From assembly GCA_022843445.1 (NCBI GenBank), contig JALHNS010000001.1, forward strand, positions 1-64,000: 64,000 bases of DNA. Direction: 5' to 3'. Positions within the stretch are counted from its first letter, which is position 1. The number at the start of each line of letters is the position of its first letter. The notes below the pieces were generated by a model that worked only from the letters and a program-made list of their open reading frames with translations, was not told the origin of the DNA and did not search any database. Positions 17,229 through 22,328 of the stretch are shown here, in pieces. Source of the DNA: Gemmata sp. Its GTDB lineage: Bacteria > Planctomycetota > Planctomycetia > Gemmatales > Gemmataceae. The translations under genes were made by a program, and so were the position numbers.

Positions 17229-18593
17229 ATGAACCGCCGCGACGCGATGATGCGCTTGGGGTGCGCCGCCGCCGGTGGCCTCGCGCTGCCGTCGCTCCTC
17301 GAAGCGCGCGCCGCTGCGCCTTCAAAGAAGGGAACCGCAGATTCGTGCATCTACATTTTCCTGTGGGGCGGGCCGCCGCAACAGGACATGTGGGACATGA
17401 AACCGGACGCGCCCGAAGGCATCCGGTCGCAGTTCAAGGAAATCGATACGGTCGTGCCCGGGATTCGCGTGTGCGATCAGATGCCGCTGTTCGCGCGGCA
17501 TACGGACAAGGTCGCGGTGGTGCGGTCGCTGTCGCACGCCGACAACAATCACGAGCCGAGCGTGTACCACATGCTCACCGGGCGCAAAGACCCGACGCTC
17601 GTGTCGCCGCGCAACCCGCGGAAGCGCGCCCACCCGCCGAACTTCGCGAGCGCGATTTCGTACTTCAGCCCGCCGAGCGCGGTTCCGTCCAACGTGACCA
17701 TCCCGCGGCCCATCGGGCACGACGGCGTTACCTACGCGGGCACCTACGCCGGGTTCCTCGGCCCGAAGCACGACCCGCTAGAGAAACTCGCGGCGAACAA
17801 ATCCAACGAGCCCGCGGCGCACCCGGACGTGCTCCCGCCGGACGTGTCGCTCACGCGCCTTCAGGCGCGCAACGGCCTCCGAACGCTGCTCGAAAAGCAG
17901 GACGCGCGGCTCCAGCGCACCGGCGGCAGCGACCTCGATGAGTTCCGCGACCAAGCCCTGCGCATGATCGCCACGCCCACCGTCCGCGAGGCGTTCGCGG
18001 TGGAGAAGGAACCCGACAAACTCCGCGACGCCTACGGCCGCAACGAGTACGGCGAGAGCTTCCTCCTCGCGCGCCGGTTGGTCGAACGCGGGGTGAAGGT
18101 GGTATCGGTGGTGTGGCTGTACATCATGCCGAACGGCGGCGTGGCGAACGTGTGGGACAACCACGGCGGCACCGCGGGCTTGGGCGGTATCACCGGCTAC
18201 GCGATGCTAAAAGAGAAGTACTGCCTGCCCCCGCTGGATCGCGCGCTGTCGGCGCTGCTCGAAGACCTCAGCGACCGCGGGATGCTGGACCGCACGCTCG
18301 TCGCGGTGGCGGGCGAGTTCGGGCGCACGCCGAAGATTAACAAGGACGCGGGCCGCGACCACTGGGGCGCGGCGCAAACCGCGCTGCTCGCGGGCGGCGG
18401 CGTTCGCGGCGGCCGGGTGTGGGGGAAGACCGACAAGCAGGCCGCGTACCCGACTGAGAACCCGGTGTCGCCGGACGACTTCCTCGCAACGATTTATCAC
18501 GCGATGGGCGTGGACCCGGCGGCGATGATCCCGGACCGCGAGAACCGCCCGCACCGCCTCTGCGACGGCGCACCGGTGCTGGGTTTGTTTTGA
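17229..18593 (+). CDS. DUF1501 domain-containing protein (Tat-exported)
   Basis: Tat-like MNRRDAMMRLGCAAAGGLALPSLL; FLWGGPPQQDMWDMKPDAPEGIRSQF; VAGEFGRTPKINKDAGRDHWG. Confidence 0.9.
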   Translation: MNRRDAMMRLGCAAAGGLALPSLLEARAAAPSKKGTADSCIYIFLWGGPPQQDMWDMKPDAPEGIRSQFKEIDTVVPGIRVCDQMPLFARHTDKVAVVRSLSHADNNHEPSVYHMLTGRKDPTLVSPRNPRKRAHPPNFASAISYFSPPSAVPSNVTIPRPIGHDGVTYAGTYAGFLGPKHDPLEKLAANKSNEPAAHPDVLPPDVSLTRLQARNGLRTLLEKQDARLQRTGGSDLDEFRDQALRMIATPTVREAFAVEKEPDKLRDAYGRNEYGESFLLARRLVERGVKVVSVVWLYIMPNGGVANVWDNHGGTAGLGGITGYAMLKEKYCLPPLDRALSALLEDLSDRGMLDRTLVAVAGEFGRTPKINKDAGRDHWGAAQTALLAGGGVRGGRVWGKTDKQAAYPTENPVSPDDFLATIYHAMGVDPAAMIPDRENRPHRLCDGAPVLGLF

Positions 18594-18594
18594 A

Positions 18595-18668
18595 GGCGAA
18601 CGGCCGGCGTAAGCCGGCCGGTGGTGGGAGTGTGAGGCGCACCGGCCGGCTTACACCGGCCGTTCGCC
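18595..18668. repeat. Inverted repeat, 29-bp arms with one mismatch, 16-nt loop
   Basis: GGCGAACGGCCGGCGTAAGCCGGCCGGTG ... CACCGGCCGGCTTACACCGGCCGTTCGCC between two DUF1501 genes. Confidence 0.85.
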
Positions 18669-18711
18669 AAGAATGCTTGTGAAGCGTGCGGCAAAACAAG
18701 AGGGCGTTGGT

Positions 18712-20028
18712 ATGTCCGCGTTCTGTGACGGCGTTTCGCGGCGCGATGCCATTCGCGTGGGCGCGGCATCGCTCTTCGGCGCTTCGTTCGCGCTGCCGCA
18801 ACTGCTGCGCGCCAGCGAGAAGGCGAAGCCGGCAAAAGACGTGTCGCTCATCTTCGTGTTCCTGCACGGCGGGCAAAGCCACCTCGACACCTTCGACCTG
18901 AAGCCGGACGCGCCCGCGGAGTTCCGCGGCGACTTCAACCCGATGCGCACCAAGGTGCCCGGGTTGCTCATGTGCGACCTGCTACCGAAGGTCGGCGCAC
19001 AGGTGGACAAGTATTCGCTCGTGCGCTCGTTCCGGCACCACAACTCGGACCACGGCCCCGCGGACCACTACATCCTCACCGGGTTCTTCCCCACCGCCGG
19101 GTTCAACCCGTCGCTCAGCCCGAACAACCAGAAGCCGTGCGTCGGGTCGGTGGTGTCGAAGTTCCTCGGCCCGAAGGGCGCGGTGCCCGCGTACGTGGCG
19201 CTTCCGAAAGTGCATCCGAGTGGTGGCGCGGCGTACCTCGGTGCGGCGCACGCGCCGTTCGTGATCGACGCCGACCCGAGCGCGCCGAACTTCAGCGTCC
19301 CGGACCTCGTGCCCCCGCCCGCGATTGCCTCCGACCGCCTGCACGACCGAAAAGCGCTCCTCGAAACCGTGGACCGGTTCCACAAGAGCGCCGAATCCAA
19401 AGCGAACGCACAAGCCGGTGCGGTGGGCACCTTCCGCGACAAAGCCTTCGACCTGATGACCTCGCCGCAAGCGAAGAAGGCGTTCGACATCCACGCGGAG
19501 CCGGAGAAGCTGCGCGACGAGTACGGGCGGCACTCGCTCGGCCAAAGCTGCCTGATGGCGCGCCGCCTCGTCGAAGCCGGCGTGCGGTGCGTGACCATCG
19601 ACCACAGCAACTGGGACACGCACGACGGCAACTTCGCGGTGCTGAAGAACAGCCTGCTCCCGATGTACGACACCGCGATTGCGACACTCTTCCGCGACCT
19701 CGCCGACCGCGGCCTTCTGGAAAGCACGCTGGTGGTGGTAACGGGCGAATTCGGGCGCACGCCGCGCATCAACAAGAACGCCGGTCGCGACCACTGGGGG
19801 CCGGCCTTCACCGTGCTGCTCGGCGGCGGCGGCGTGAAGGGCGGCGTGGTGGTGGGCAAGACCGACGCCCGCGCCGAGAAGCCCGCGACCGACCCCTACG
19901 GCCCGGAAGACCTGTTCGCCACGATGTACGCGCTGATGGGCATCGACCCGAAAGCCGAAGCCCACACGCCCGACGGCCGCCCGATTGCGCTCGTGAACAA
20001 CGGTCGCGTGATGAGCGAACTGCTGTGA
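18712..20028 (+). CDS. DUF1501 domain-containing protein (Tat-exported)
   Basis: VSRRDAIRVGAASLFGASFALPQLL; FLHGGQSHLDTFDLKPDAPAEFRGDF; VTGEFGRTPRINKNAGRDHWGPAFTVLLGGGGVKGG. Confidence 0.9.
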   Translation: MSAFCDGVSRRDAIRVGAASLFGASFALPQLLRASEKAKPAKDVSLIFVFLHGGQSHLDTFDLKPDAPAEFRGDFNPMRTKVPGLLMCDLLPKVGAQVDKYSLVRSFRHHNSDHGPADHYILTGFFPTAGFNPSLSPNNQKPCVGSVVSKFLGPKGAVPAYVALPKVHPSGGAAYLGAAHAPFVIDADPSAPNFSVPDLVPPPAIASDRLHDRKALLETVDRFHKSAESKANAQAGAVGTFRDKAFDLMTSPQAKKAFDIHAEPEKLRDEYGRHSLGQSCLMARRLVEAGVRCVTIDHSNWDTHDGNFAVLKNSLLPMYDTAIATLFRDLADRGLLESTLVVVTGEFGRTPRINKNAGRDHWGPAFTVLLGGGGVKGGVVVGKTDARAEKPATDPYGPEDLFATMYALMGIDPKAEAHTPDGRPIALVNNGRVMSELL

Positions 20029-20033
20029 CGGCC

Positions 20034-20150
20034 GCACAGGGCTTCCGCCCTGTGCTATGGACGGCGACCCGCTCCGCGGGTGCTCAGACACCTAACCGCC
20101 TTCCGCCCCGGAGGGGCCGGCTACCGTAGCACAGGGCGGAAGCCCTGTGC
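20034..20150. repeat. MITE-like inverted repeat with perfect 24-bp arms
   Basis: GCACAGGGCTTCCGCCCTGTGCTA (20034-20057) and its exact reverse complement (20127-20150); each arm is itself palindromic. Confidence 0.85.
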
Positions 20151-20168: not shown

Positions 20169-22328
20169 ATGAACCGCTCTCTGCTTTCCCTCTGCGTCCT
20201 CTGCGGTCTCTGCGGTGAATCGTCCGCCAACCCGCCCACCGCGAGTTACGTCTTCCCCGCGGGCGCGCAGCGCGGCACCGCCGTCGAGGTGCGCGTCGGC
20301 GGGCTGTTCCTGCACGACAAGCCCGTGTTCGAGCTGACCGGCACCGGCGTGCAAGCGCCGCCGCACCTCGCGCCCGCGAAGCGCGTGTGGTTCGAGGGGC
20401 CGGTGCTGCCGCTGCCCGAATCGCAACAGCAAGAAGACTACCCTGCGGATTACAGCGGCAAACTGACCGTGGCGAAGGACGCGCCGCTTGGGGCGCGCCG
20501 CGTGCGCCTCTTCACGGCGCAGGGCGGCGCGAGCGGCCCGGTGTTCGTGGTCGGCGACCTGCCCGAAGTGATCGAAACCGAAATCGACGGCGACCCGGTG
20601 CCGCAGGCGCTCGCCGCGCTGCCGGTCACGGCGAACGGGCGCATCTTCCCGCGCGAAGACGTTGACCTCTGGGAGTTTCACGCCGAAGCCGGGAAGCCGG
20701 TCACGGCGCTCGTTCACACCGCGAGCATCAACTCACCGCTCGTGTCGAAGCTCGAACTGCTCGACGCCGCGGGGCGCGTGGTGGCCGAACAGATGCCGCA
20801 CGCGTGCCCCGGCACCGACGCGAGCCTGAAATTCACCCCGAAGGTGAGCGGCAAGTACCGACTGCGCATCTCCGACGCGCGCGCGAACGGCGGGCAAGCG
20901 TTCGTGTATCGGCTCACGGTCACGACGGCCGACGTGCCCGCGTTCCACTTCCCGCTGAAGGCACCCGCGGACGGACTGCGCGACGCGAGCACGGAGAAGC
21001 AACCGCTGGCCCCGCCGTTCGCGCTGAACGGGCAGATCGAGCGCCCCGGTATCGTGGGCGAGTGGAAGCTCGATCTCAAGAAAAGCGCGAAGTACACGTT
21101 CGACCTGCAAGCCCGCCGGTTCGAGTCGCCGCTGTGCGGTGTCGTTCGCGTGCAGGACGCGAGCGGCAAAGAGCTGGCGCGCGCAGAAGCGACCGAGACC
21201 GACGACCCGAAGCCGCTCTCATTCGCGCCGCCCGCCGATGGTACTTACACGGTAAGCGTGAGCGAGAAGTTCCGCGGGCGCTCCGGATCGCACTTCGTGT
21301 ACCGCCTGCGCGTGTTGGACGCTGCGGAGAAAGCCGCGCCCGGCTTCCGCTTAGCACTCAAAGCGGACGTGATCACGCTGACGCGCGGCACGACCGCGAC
21401 CGTGCCGGTTACTGTGGAGCGCCGCGGCGGGTTCACCGGCCCGATCGCGCTGGAACTCGAGGGGTTGCCGAAGGGCGTCACGGTGCAGAACGCGCAAATC
21501 GGCGCGGGCCAATTCGCCACCACGCTCGCGCTGAAGGCCGACGACACGCTTCCCATTGGGCCGCTCCCGCTGAAGCTCGTCGGCACCGCGAAGGCCGGTG
21601 ACACCGCACTGTCACACACCGCGGAGTACAAGGGCGCGTCCGACTTGCGCCTCGCGGGCGCGTTCCCGACGCCGTTCAAGATTGTGGACGAGTACGTGAT
21701 GACGAGCGCGCCGCGCGGCGAAACCTACTTCCGCAAGTACAAGGTGGATCGCGGTACGTTCCTCGGCCCGATTCGCGTTGAGTTGGCCGACAAGCAGGCG
21801 CGGCACCTGCAAGGCGTAACGGGGCCGGTGCTCACGCTGAAGCCGGGCGAAACAGACTTCGAGTACCCGGCGTTCCTGCCGCCGTGGATGGAGATGGGCC
21901 GCACCTGTCGCGTGTGCGTGATGGCGACCGCGACCGTGCGCGACCCGCTCGACGGCCGCGAACACGTCGTGAGTTTCAGTTCGACCGAACAGAACCAACA
22001 GATGATCGTGGTTGTGGGGCCGGGACGTTTAGACTTGAGCGCAGATCGCACAAGCATAAGGGCGGAGGGCGAAGTGCGCGTAACCGTGAAGGTGAGCCGC
22101 GCGAAAGCGCTGACCGGCCCCGCGACGGTAGAGGTAGTGCTGCCCGAACACATCAAGGGCGTCCGCGCGCCGGCGCTGACCGTGCCCGCGGACAAGAGCG
22201 AAGCCGAGCTCGTGCTGACCTTCGACGCGAGCGCCGGCCCGTTCAACGTGCCGCTGCTGTTGCGCGCGACGGTGCAAACCCCGCGCGGCCCCGTAACGGC
22301 TGAAACCAAACTCGACGCCGTGAAGTAG
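20169..22328 (+). CDS. Secreted protein with pre-peptidase C-terminal (PPC)-like and Ig-like repeats
   Basis: Cys-rich signal peptide MNRSLLSLCVLCGLCGESSA; GRIFPREDVDLWEFHAEAGKPVTALVHTASINSPLVSKLELLDAAGRVVAE; several beta-rich repeats. Confidence 0.75.
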   Translation: MNRSLLSLCVLCGLCGESSANPPTASYVFPAGAQRGTAVEVRVGGLFLHDKPVFELTGTGVQAPPHLAPAKRVWFEGPVLPLPESQQQEDYPADYSGKLTVAKDAPLGARRVRLFTAQGGASGPVFVVGDLPEVIETEIDGDPVPQALAALPVTANGRIFPREDVDLWEFHAEAGKPVTALVHTASINSPLVSKLELLDAAGRVVAEQMPHACPGTDASLKFTPKVSGKYRLRISDARANGGQAFVYRLTVTTADVPAFHFPLKAPADGLRDASTEKQPLAPPFALNGQIERPGIVGEWKLDLKKSAKYTFDLQARRFESPLCGVVRVQDASGKELARAEATETDDPKPLSFAPPADGTYTVSVSEKFRGRSGSHFVYRLRVLDAAEKAAPGFRLALKADVITLTRGTTATVPVTVERRGGFTGPIALELEGLPKGVTVQNAQIGAGQFATTLALKADDTLPIGPLPLKLVGTAKAGDTALSHTAEYKGASDLRLAGAFPTPFKIVDEYVMTSAPRGETYFRKYKVDRGTFLGPIRVELADKQARHLQGVTGPVLTLKPGETDFEYPAFLPPWMEMGRTCRVCVMATATVRDPLDGREHVVSFSSTEQNQQMIVVVGPGRLDLSADRTSIRAEGEVRVTVKVSRAKALTGPATVEVVLPEHIKGVRAPALTVPADKSEAELVLTFDASAGPFNVPLLLRATVQTPRGPVTAETKLDAVK
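20175..20222. repeat. Dispersed repeat of the TTCACCGCAGAGACCGCAGAGGACGCAGAG type
   Basis: Plus strand ctctctgctttccctctgcgtcctctgcggtctctgcggtgaa; antisense frame reads FTAETAEDAEGKQ, a common spurious translation of this repeat class. Confidence 0.65.

Follow-up and report, generated by a model that had tools for sequence, protein, structure and literature searches.

Dispersed palindromic repeats as an apparent source of protein-export signals in Gemmata-like planctomycetes

Gene A and its repeat-built N-terminus

The window analysed here is a stretch of 64,000 nucleotides from Gemmata sp. (GenBank assembly GCA_022843445.1, contig JALHNS010000001.1, positions 1 to 64,000). It contains a gene, referred to below as gene A (20169-22328, forward strand), whose first codons are largely made of a repeat that recurs through the genome. 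Gene A encodes a protein of 719 amino acids with a weak match to the pre-peptidase C-terminal (PPC) domain, and the mature part of the protein is conserved across the Gemmataceae. On the comparisons reported below, Gemmata-like planctomycetes seem to have drawn protein-export signals repeatedly from repeat DNA of this kind.

The gene opens at 20169 with ATG AAC CGC TCT CTG CTT TCC CTC TGC GTC CTC TGC GGT CTC TGC GGT GAA TCG TCC GCC, which is translated as MNRSLLSLCVLCGLCGESSA; the mature protein then begins with the conserved stretch NPPTASYVFPAGAQRG. The original prediction, which had been made from the sequence of the window, gave DNA and translation correctly, except that the repeat-built N-terminus counts 20 residues and not 19. 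Very probably, these first 20 codons (20169-20228, forward strand) encode a signal peptide of the Sec type, with a hydrophobic core that came from one arm of a dispersed palindrome. The arm in question, CTCTGCGTCCTCTGCGGTCTCTGCGGTGAA (20190-20219, forward strand), forms codons 8-17 and reads in frame as LCVLCGLCGE, the hydrophobic core of the predicted signal peptide; it matches exactly an element found throughout the genome and the genus. Positions 20190-20216 form a 9-nt tandem of three units with the consensus CTCTGCGGT. The adjoining CTCTCTGCTTTCC (20177-20189, forward strand) is probably the inner edge of the arm or the loop, an approximate assignment made by comparison with other copies (...CTCTCTGCCTTCC, ...CTTTCC); read on the other strand, 20177-20219 is TTCACCGCAGAGACCGCAGAGGACGCAGAGGGAAAGCAGAGAG. 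Where copies elsewhere are intact, they form inverted repeats; the window has kept only half of such an element, its right (downstream) arm.

Signal-peptide likeness was judged from Kyte-Doolittle hydropathy (10-residue maximum) and residue layout. The N-terminus of gene A reaches 2.70 over 10 residues, the ordinary signal peptides of orthologues 2.25-2.97, and the mature part of gene A 1.59 at its highest. The layout is that of a Sec signal peptide, with a basic n-region (N-R), a hydrophobic core, a c-region ending S-S-A and small residues at -3 and -1 (MNRS / LLSLCVLCGLCG / ESSA). The reading of the repeat as a Leu/Cys-rich, signal-peptide-like segment is thus borne out at the level of prediction, and the arm-derived peptide would be expected to direct export. 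A lipoprotein signal peptide was considered and rejected: the lipobox [LVI][ASTVI][GAS]C has no match, the cysteines following LSL, CVL and CGL.

Directly 5' of gene A lies a DUF1501 gene (18673-20028, forward strand), and in relatives the repeat sits between the stop codon of that gene and gene A. The region 17229-20028 holds two neighbouring DUF1501 genes, with 73% DNA identity between 18242-18451 and 19674-19883. At the place expected for the left arm of the element there is a different inverted repeat (20034-20150, no strand), made up of GCACAGGGCTTCCGCCCTGTGC (20034-20055) and GCACAGGGCGGAAGCCCTGTGC (20129-20150). This second inverted repeat also looks dispersed, similar sequence being found 5' of repeat-derived signal peptides in G013 (gene B, see below) and G019 (gene C).

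The dispersed palindromic repeat

Inside the window the dispersal of the repeat is not significant: a 16-mer search allowing up to 3 mismatches gave 3 matches against 1.18 expected, and 15 of 100 shuffles reached 3. Two of these matches are the gene A arm itself and the third is at chance level; the motif is single-copy in the window. Dispersal was therefore sought in the whole genome, where CGCAGAGNNCGCAGAG, with at most one mismatch, has 56 two-unit matches compared with 5 for a reversed-pattern control. The 56 matches group into 26 loci, at 9 of which both arms were detected by the pattern. The description of the repeat as dispersed accordingly stands for the genome and cannot be read from the window.

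The repeat can be written as (CTCTGCGNN)n, terminating in GGTGAA. Intact copies have the form TTCACCGCRGAGACCGCAGAG...loop...CTCTGCGGTCTCYGCGGTGAA, that is, a palindrome with two arms of about 30-45 nt, in which the units are 8 or 9 nt long and fall into the subtypes CGCAGAG, CACAGAG and CACAAAG. The outward strand is rich in CTC, TGC, TTT and GTG and codes for Leu, Cys, Val, Phe and Ser in almost any frame; by hydropathy, practically all of its open frames are hydrophobic, and the inward strand is strongly hydrophilic. Because the element is palindromic, a gene on either flank always meets the hydrophobic outward reading, and because a nonamer equals three codons, the number of units leaves the frame undisturbed. 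The palindromic structure, the hydrophobicity of the outward strand in nearly every frame and the turnover of subtypes at the same gene start go beyond the original prediction.

Elements are often intergenic and lie 5' of genes without being fused to them, for example at C14 and C44 in the genome of the window. Subtype stocks can be sizeable, with 92 octamer arms in G018 and 36 CACAAAG arms in G075. A link to Y1/RAYT was not found, repeat arms being absent within about 1.5 kb on each side of 30 Y1_Tnp loci of the genus, and the genome of the window has no GxxExxY/PDDEXK_3 proteins.

Reading frame, codon positions and gene families

The relatives compared were 95 Gemmataceae genomes, many of them metagenome assemblies. 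Among the 40 exact three-unit arms listed in these genomes, several stand at the starts of gene A orthologues, and about 16 begin long open reading frames (ORFs) in a single frame (LCVLCGLCGE), in unrelated genes. A census was then taken over the Gemmataceae loci in hand, each row being an arm joined to an ATG and to a long ORF; N-terminal fusions fell into frames 0, 1 and 2 as 46/5/2. Judged by the GC content at third codon positions (GC3, 0.75 or more), 38 of the 46 frame-0 fusions are coding-like, and almost all of the 38 resemble signal peptides. The spacing from ATG to arm, taken modulo 3, is 32/5/8 in the genus (p = 4.6e-7, to be read as indicative only). As a negative control, the same scan of planctomycete genomes outside Gemmataceae, with a 100-codon filter, gave 5:6:0 by frame and no bias, and a phylum-wide rule was rejected on this 5:6 ratio of frame 0 to frame 1.

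Three side observations concern the same kind of fusion. At L093 (G019), the frame-1 reading of the arm also yields a plausible signal peptide, MRTLFKLACFVSAFSAFSAVKSAEPLP. At L033 (G011), an element arm lies 5' of an ORF and shares its frame; the ORF reads MAKQLLYTD, which resembles the start of GroEL. In G371, a planctomycete that does not belong to the family, at least 5 near-identical ATG...CTCTGCG starts (MG-[KN]-x-PVFI-like) lie on contigs C31, C53, C228, C397, C399 and C554; they belong to a longer repeat, and their ORFs fall below the 100-codon filter.

Codon positions provide a second line of evidence. The signal arms of genes A and B were located by protein homology and not by DNA match, with a maximum of 7 mismatches to the template in both sets of arms. 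Signal arms differ from the element template at 6 of 342 sites in codon positions 1-2 (1.8%) and at 13 of 152 in position 3 (8.6%). Partner arms of non-signal elements have the opposite pattern, with 140 of 1386 and 35 of 616, respectively (Fisher p = 2.7e-5 for the contrast). Coding constraint on a single arm predicts the one-armed state in which many signal-coding copies are found.

About nine gene families have arm-derived, signal-peptide-like starts. Besides gene A, these include four PPC proteins, namely gene B (mature start ASPSLGxIQPRGAQRG), C43 and C67 in the genome of the window, and gene D (G052/G053). Others are gene C, a PQQ beta-propeller; gene E, a beta-lactamase; a WD40 protein, before which stands a heme-binding-like CVVCHS motif; and one protein containing YPPDINLETARDRQSFV, for which the tested stretch gave no Pfam match. 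The genome of the window alone has four CGCAGAG-derived signal peptides (gene A, C95, C43 and C67) and a fifth, in gene C (C143), from a related GCAGAT-type repeat.

Subtype turnover, competing explanations and significance

The same gene start does not always carry the same subtype. In gene A, the nonamer CGCAGAG stands at the start in G000, G013, G016, G019, G020, G022, G024 and G025, CACAGAG in G018, G014 and G087, and CACAAAG in G017 and G092, while G055, G053, G051, G063 and G066 have ordinary signal peptides. The position is constant across these orthologues, after the stop codon of the preceding gene and before the mature start. Genes B and C also vary in subtype at their starts, B with further subtypes, and quick trees require at least 8 class changes for gene A (20 rows) and 11 for gene B (25 rows). 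In G075, the three unrelated genes A, B and C all have CACAAAG arms, matching the abundant subtype of that genome; G018 has an octamer in gene A, yet its gene B signal is of the nonamer type.

Complete palindromes straddle the start codon of gene A in G020, G018 and G087, with arms of 45, 40 and 39 nt, respectively. Across start-straddling palindromes, the arms measure 29-50 nt and the right arm in most cases ends 8-27 nt short of the conserved motif of the mature protein. The gene B copy of G011 has a 43-nt arm, which reaches that motif and mirrors the cleavage-site codons (CTCTTGCGGCC). In gene A of G020 (L066:1432-1575), a near-perfect 45-bp hairpin of -100.8 kcal/mol (z -14.6) has the start codon in its loop. 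Turnover may possibly proceed by re-insertion or by local conversion and template switching, and both may operate.

In short, the arms at these starts are homologous to a dispersed repeat, derive from a palindromic structure, lie in the correct frame, are constrained at the level of codons, occur in several gene families and turn over in subtype. The original prediction that a dispersed repeat can seed secretion signals is supported by the frame bias and its absence outside the family, by codon-position conservation, by the unrelated families and by the orthologue comparison it had proposed: orthologues that lack the repeat also differ in their signal peptides, rather than having the same one without repeat-like DNA. 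We propose that an element at the 5' end of a gene with a secreted product would offer, through an ATG in its loop and the near arm, a ready-made signal peptide, which would replace the older one. The near arm would then be held by selection as coding sequence and the far arm would decay, as in gene A, and later events, through movement or rewriting of elements, would swap in another subtype. In its fullest form, which we hold with about even confidence, this proposal makes the dispersed palindrome an interchangeable export-signal cassette: symmetry and composition would guarantee a hydrophobic reading, the signals of the same genes would be repeatedly overwritten by the current subtype of the genome, and unrelated signal peptides would evolve in concert with the repeat family.

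Several points weigh against the derivation of these signal peptides from the repeat. In other genera of the family the frame bias is weak (27/14/17, p = 0.09), and orthologous rows share descent and are not independent events, so that the p-values for frame are indicative only. Of 110 octamer arms, 1 genuinely serves as a signal peptide, and the remaining fused ORFs are low in GC3; the octamer as an equally frequent source of signals was rejected on this count, and use of the repeat therefore depends on location and subtype. No transposase is linked to the elements, as judged at the Y1_Tnp loci of the genus, and the three cysteines in the core of gene A are unusual, given that its orthologues have signal peptides rich in Ala and Leu.

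A clearly less probable explanation is that each gene captured the element once and inherited it vertically. Template switching at the hairpin, or gene conversion with dispersed copies, would have kept its two arms similar, and subtype differences would be the drift of one locus. The constant place of the element in many species fits such a history, as does the mirrored cleavage site in gene B of G011, which local template switching would give. Against it, several independent gene families gained the element, subtypes of unlike unit length (8 versus 9 nt) alternate between close relatives, and the subtype can track the stock of the genome, as with the octamer in gene A of G018 and CACAAAG in the three genes of G075.

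It is unlikely that the palindrome is kept as a regulatory hairpin around the start codon with the signal-peptide sequence as a by-product. The hairpin of G020, whose loop holds the ribosome-binding region as well as the start codon, would suit such a role, but the left arm has been lost and the coding arm kept in many orthologues, including gene A of the window, and conservation follows codon position. Still less probable is descent of the dispersed repeats from signal-peptide coding sequences: the outward arm is very well suited as a hydrophobic core and the nonamer period is a whole number of codons, but the repeat is palindromic, its octamer and CACAAAG relatives abound as non-coding copies, and arms of similar sequence are found phylum-wide with no frame bias. 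A misplaced start codon, which would make the arm 5' untranslated DNA with translation beginning downstream and which the unfused elements at C14 and C44 might suggest, is the least probable of all, as the conserved mature motif of gene A lies a few residues past the arm peptide, directly after the repeat-built stretch, an ordinary signal peptide occupies exactly the same place in the outgroup, the arm is under codon-position constraint and no in-frame ATG lies between arm and motif.

The closest precedent for repeat-derived export signals is YPAL/RU-2 of Yersinia, which forms part of the signal peptide of YPO1552 (residues 1-30 of a 41-residue signal), a single predicted case (Delihas 2007, PMC2759123, PMC2229807). 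As here, homologues that lack the element use other signal sequences; the present case differs in its roughly nine gene families, its evidence from frame and codon position and the variation in subtype among orthologous starts. The palindromic elements of Rickettsia (RPE) also lie in frame in protein-coding genes and are described as inserts in the mature protein that are tolerated, neutral or slightly harmful (Ogata et al. 2000, as reviewed in PMC2229807). The likeness is that both are dispersed palindromic repeats read in frame; unlike RPE as portrayed there, the repeat here gives a predicted cleavable N-terminal targeting signal. Inverted arms, many dispersed copies and in-frame reading place the element among palindromic repeats in ORFs of the RPE/RU kind, which resemble miniature inverted-repeat transposable elements (MITEs). 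It is like REP sequences in being a short palindromic extragenic repeat in many copies, and unlike REP/RAYT in the absence of arms beside the Y1_Tnp loci. The short tandemly repeated repetitive sequences of cyanobacteria, dispersed short tandem units of heptamers, are likewise scattered through the genome and are not known as signal-peptide sources. A search of the open literature, which takes in few subscription papers, turned up no paper naming these motifs or describing the phenomenon in planctomycetes. What is new relative to the Yersinia precedent is the number of genes, the evidence of selection and the repeated replacement.

New signal peptides are usually ascribed to point mutation, domain shuffling or chance hydrophobic stretches, and the repeat would provide a concrete, recurring genomic source. 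The events are replicated in several families and species, and the stages can be followed from intact palindrome and one-armed relic to ordinary signal peptide. The frame-and-codon test can be repeated in any proteome survey, and Cys/Leu-rich N-termini such as LCVLCVLCGE in planctomycete annotations should be read as recruited repeats, and not as annotation errors or lipoproteins.
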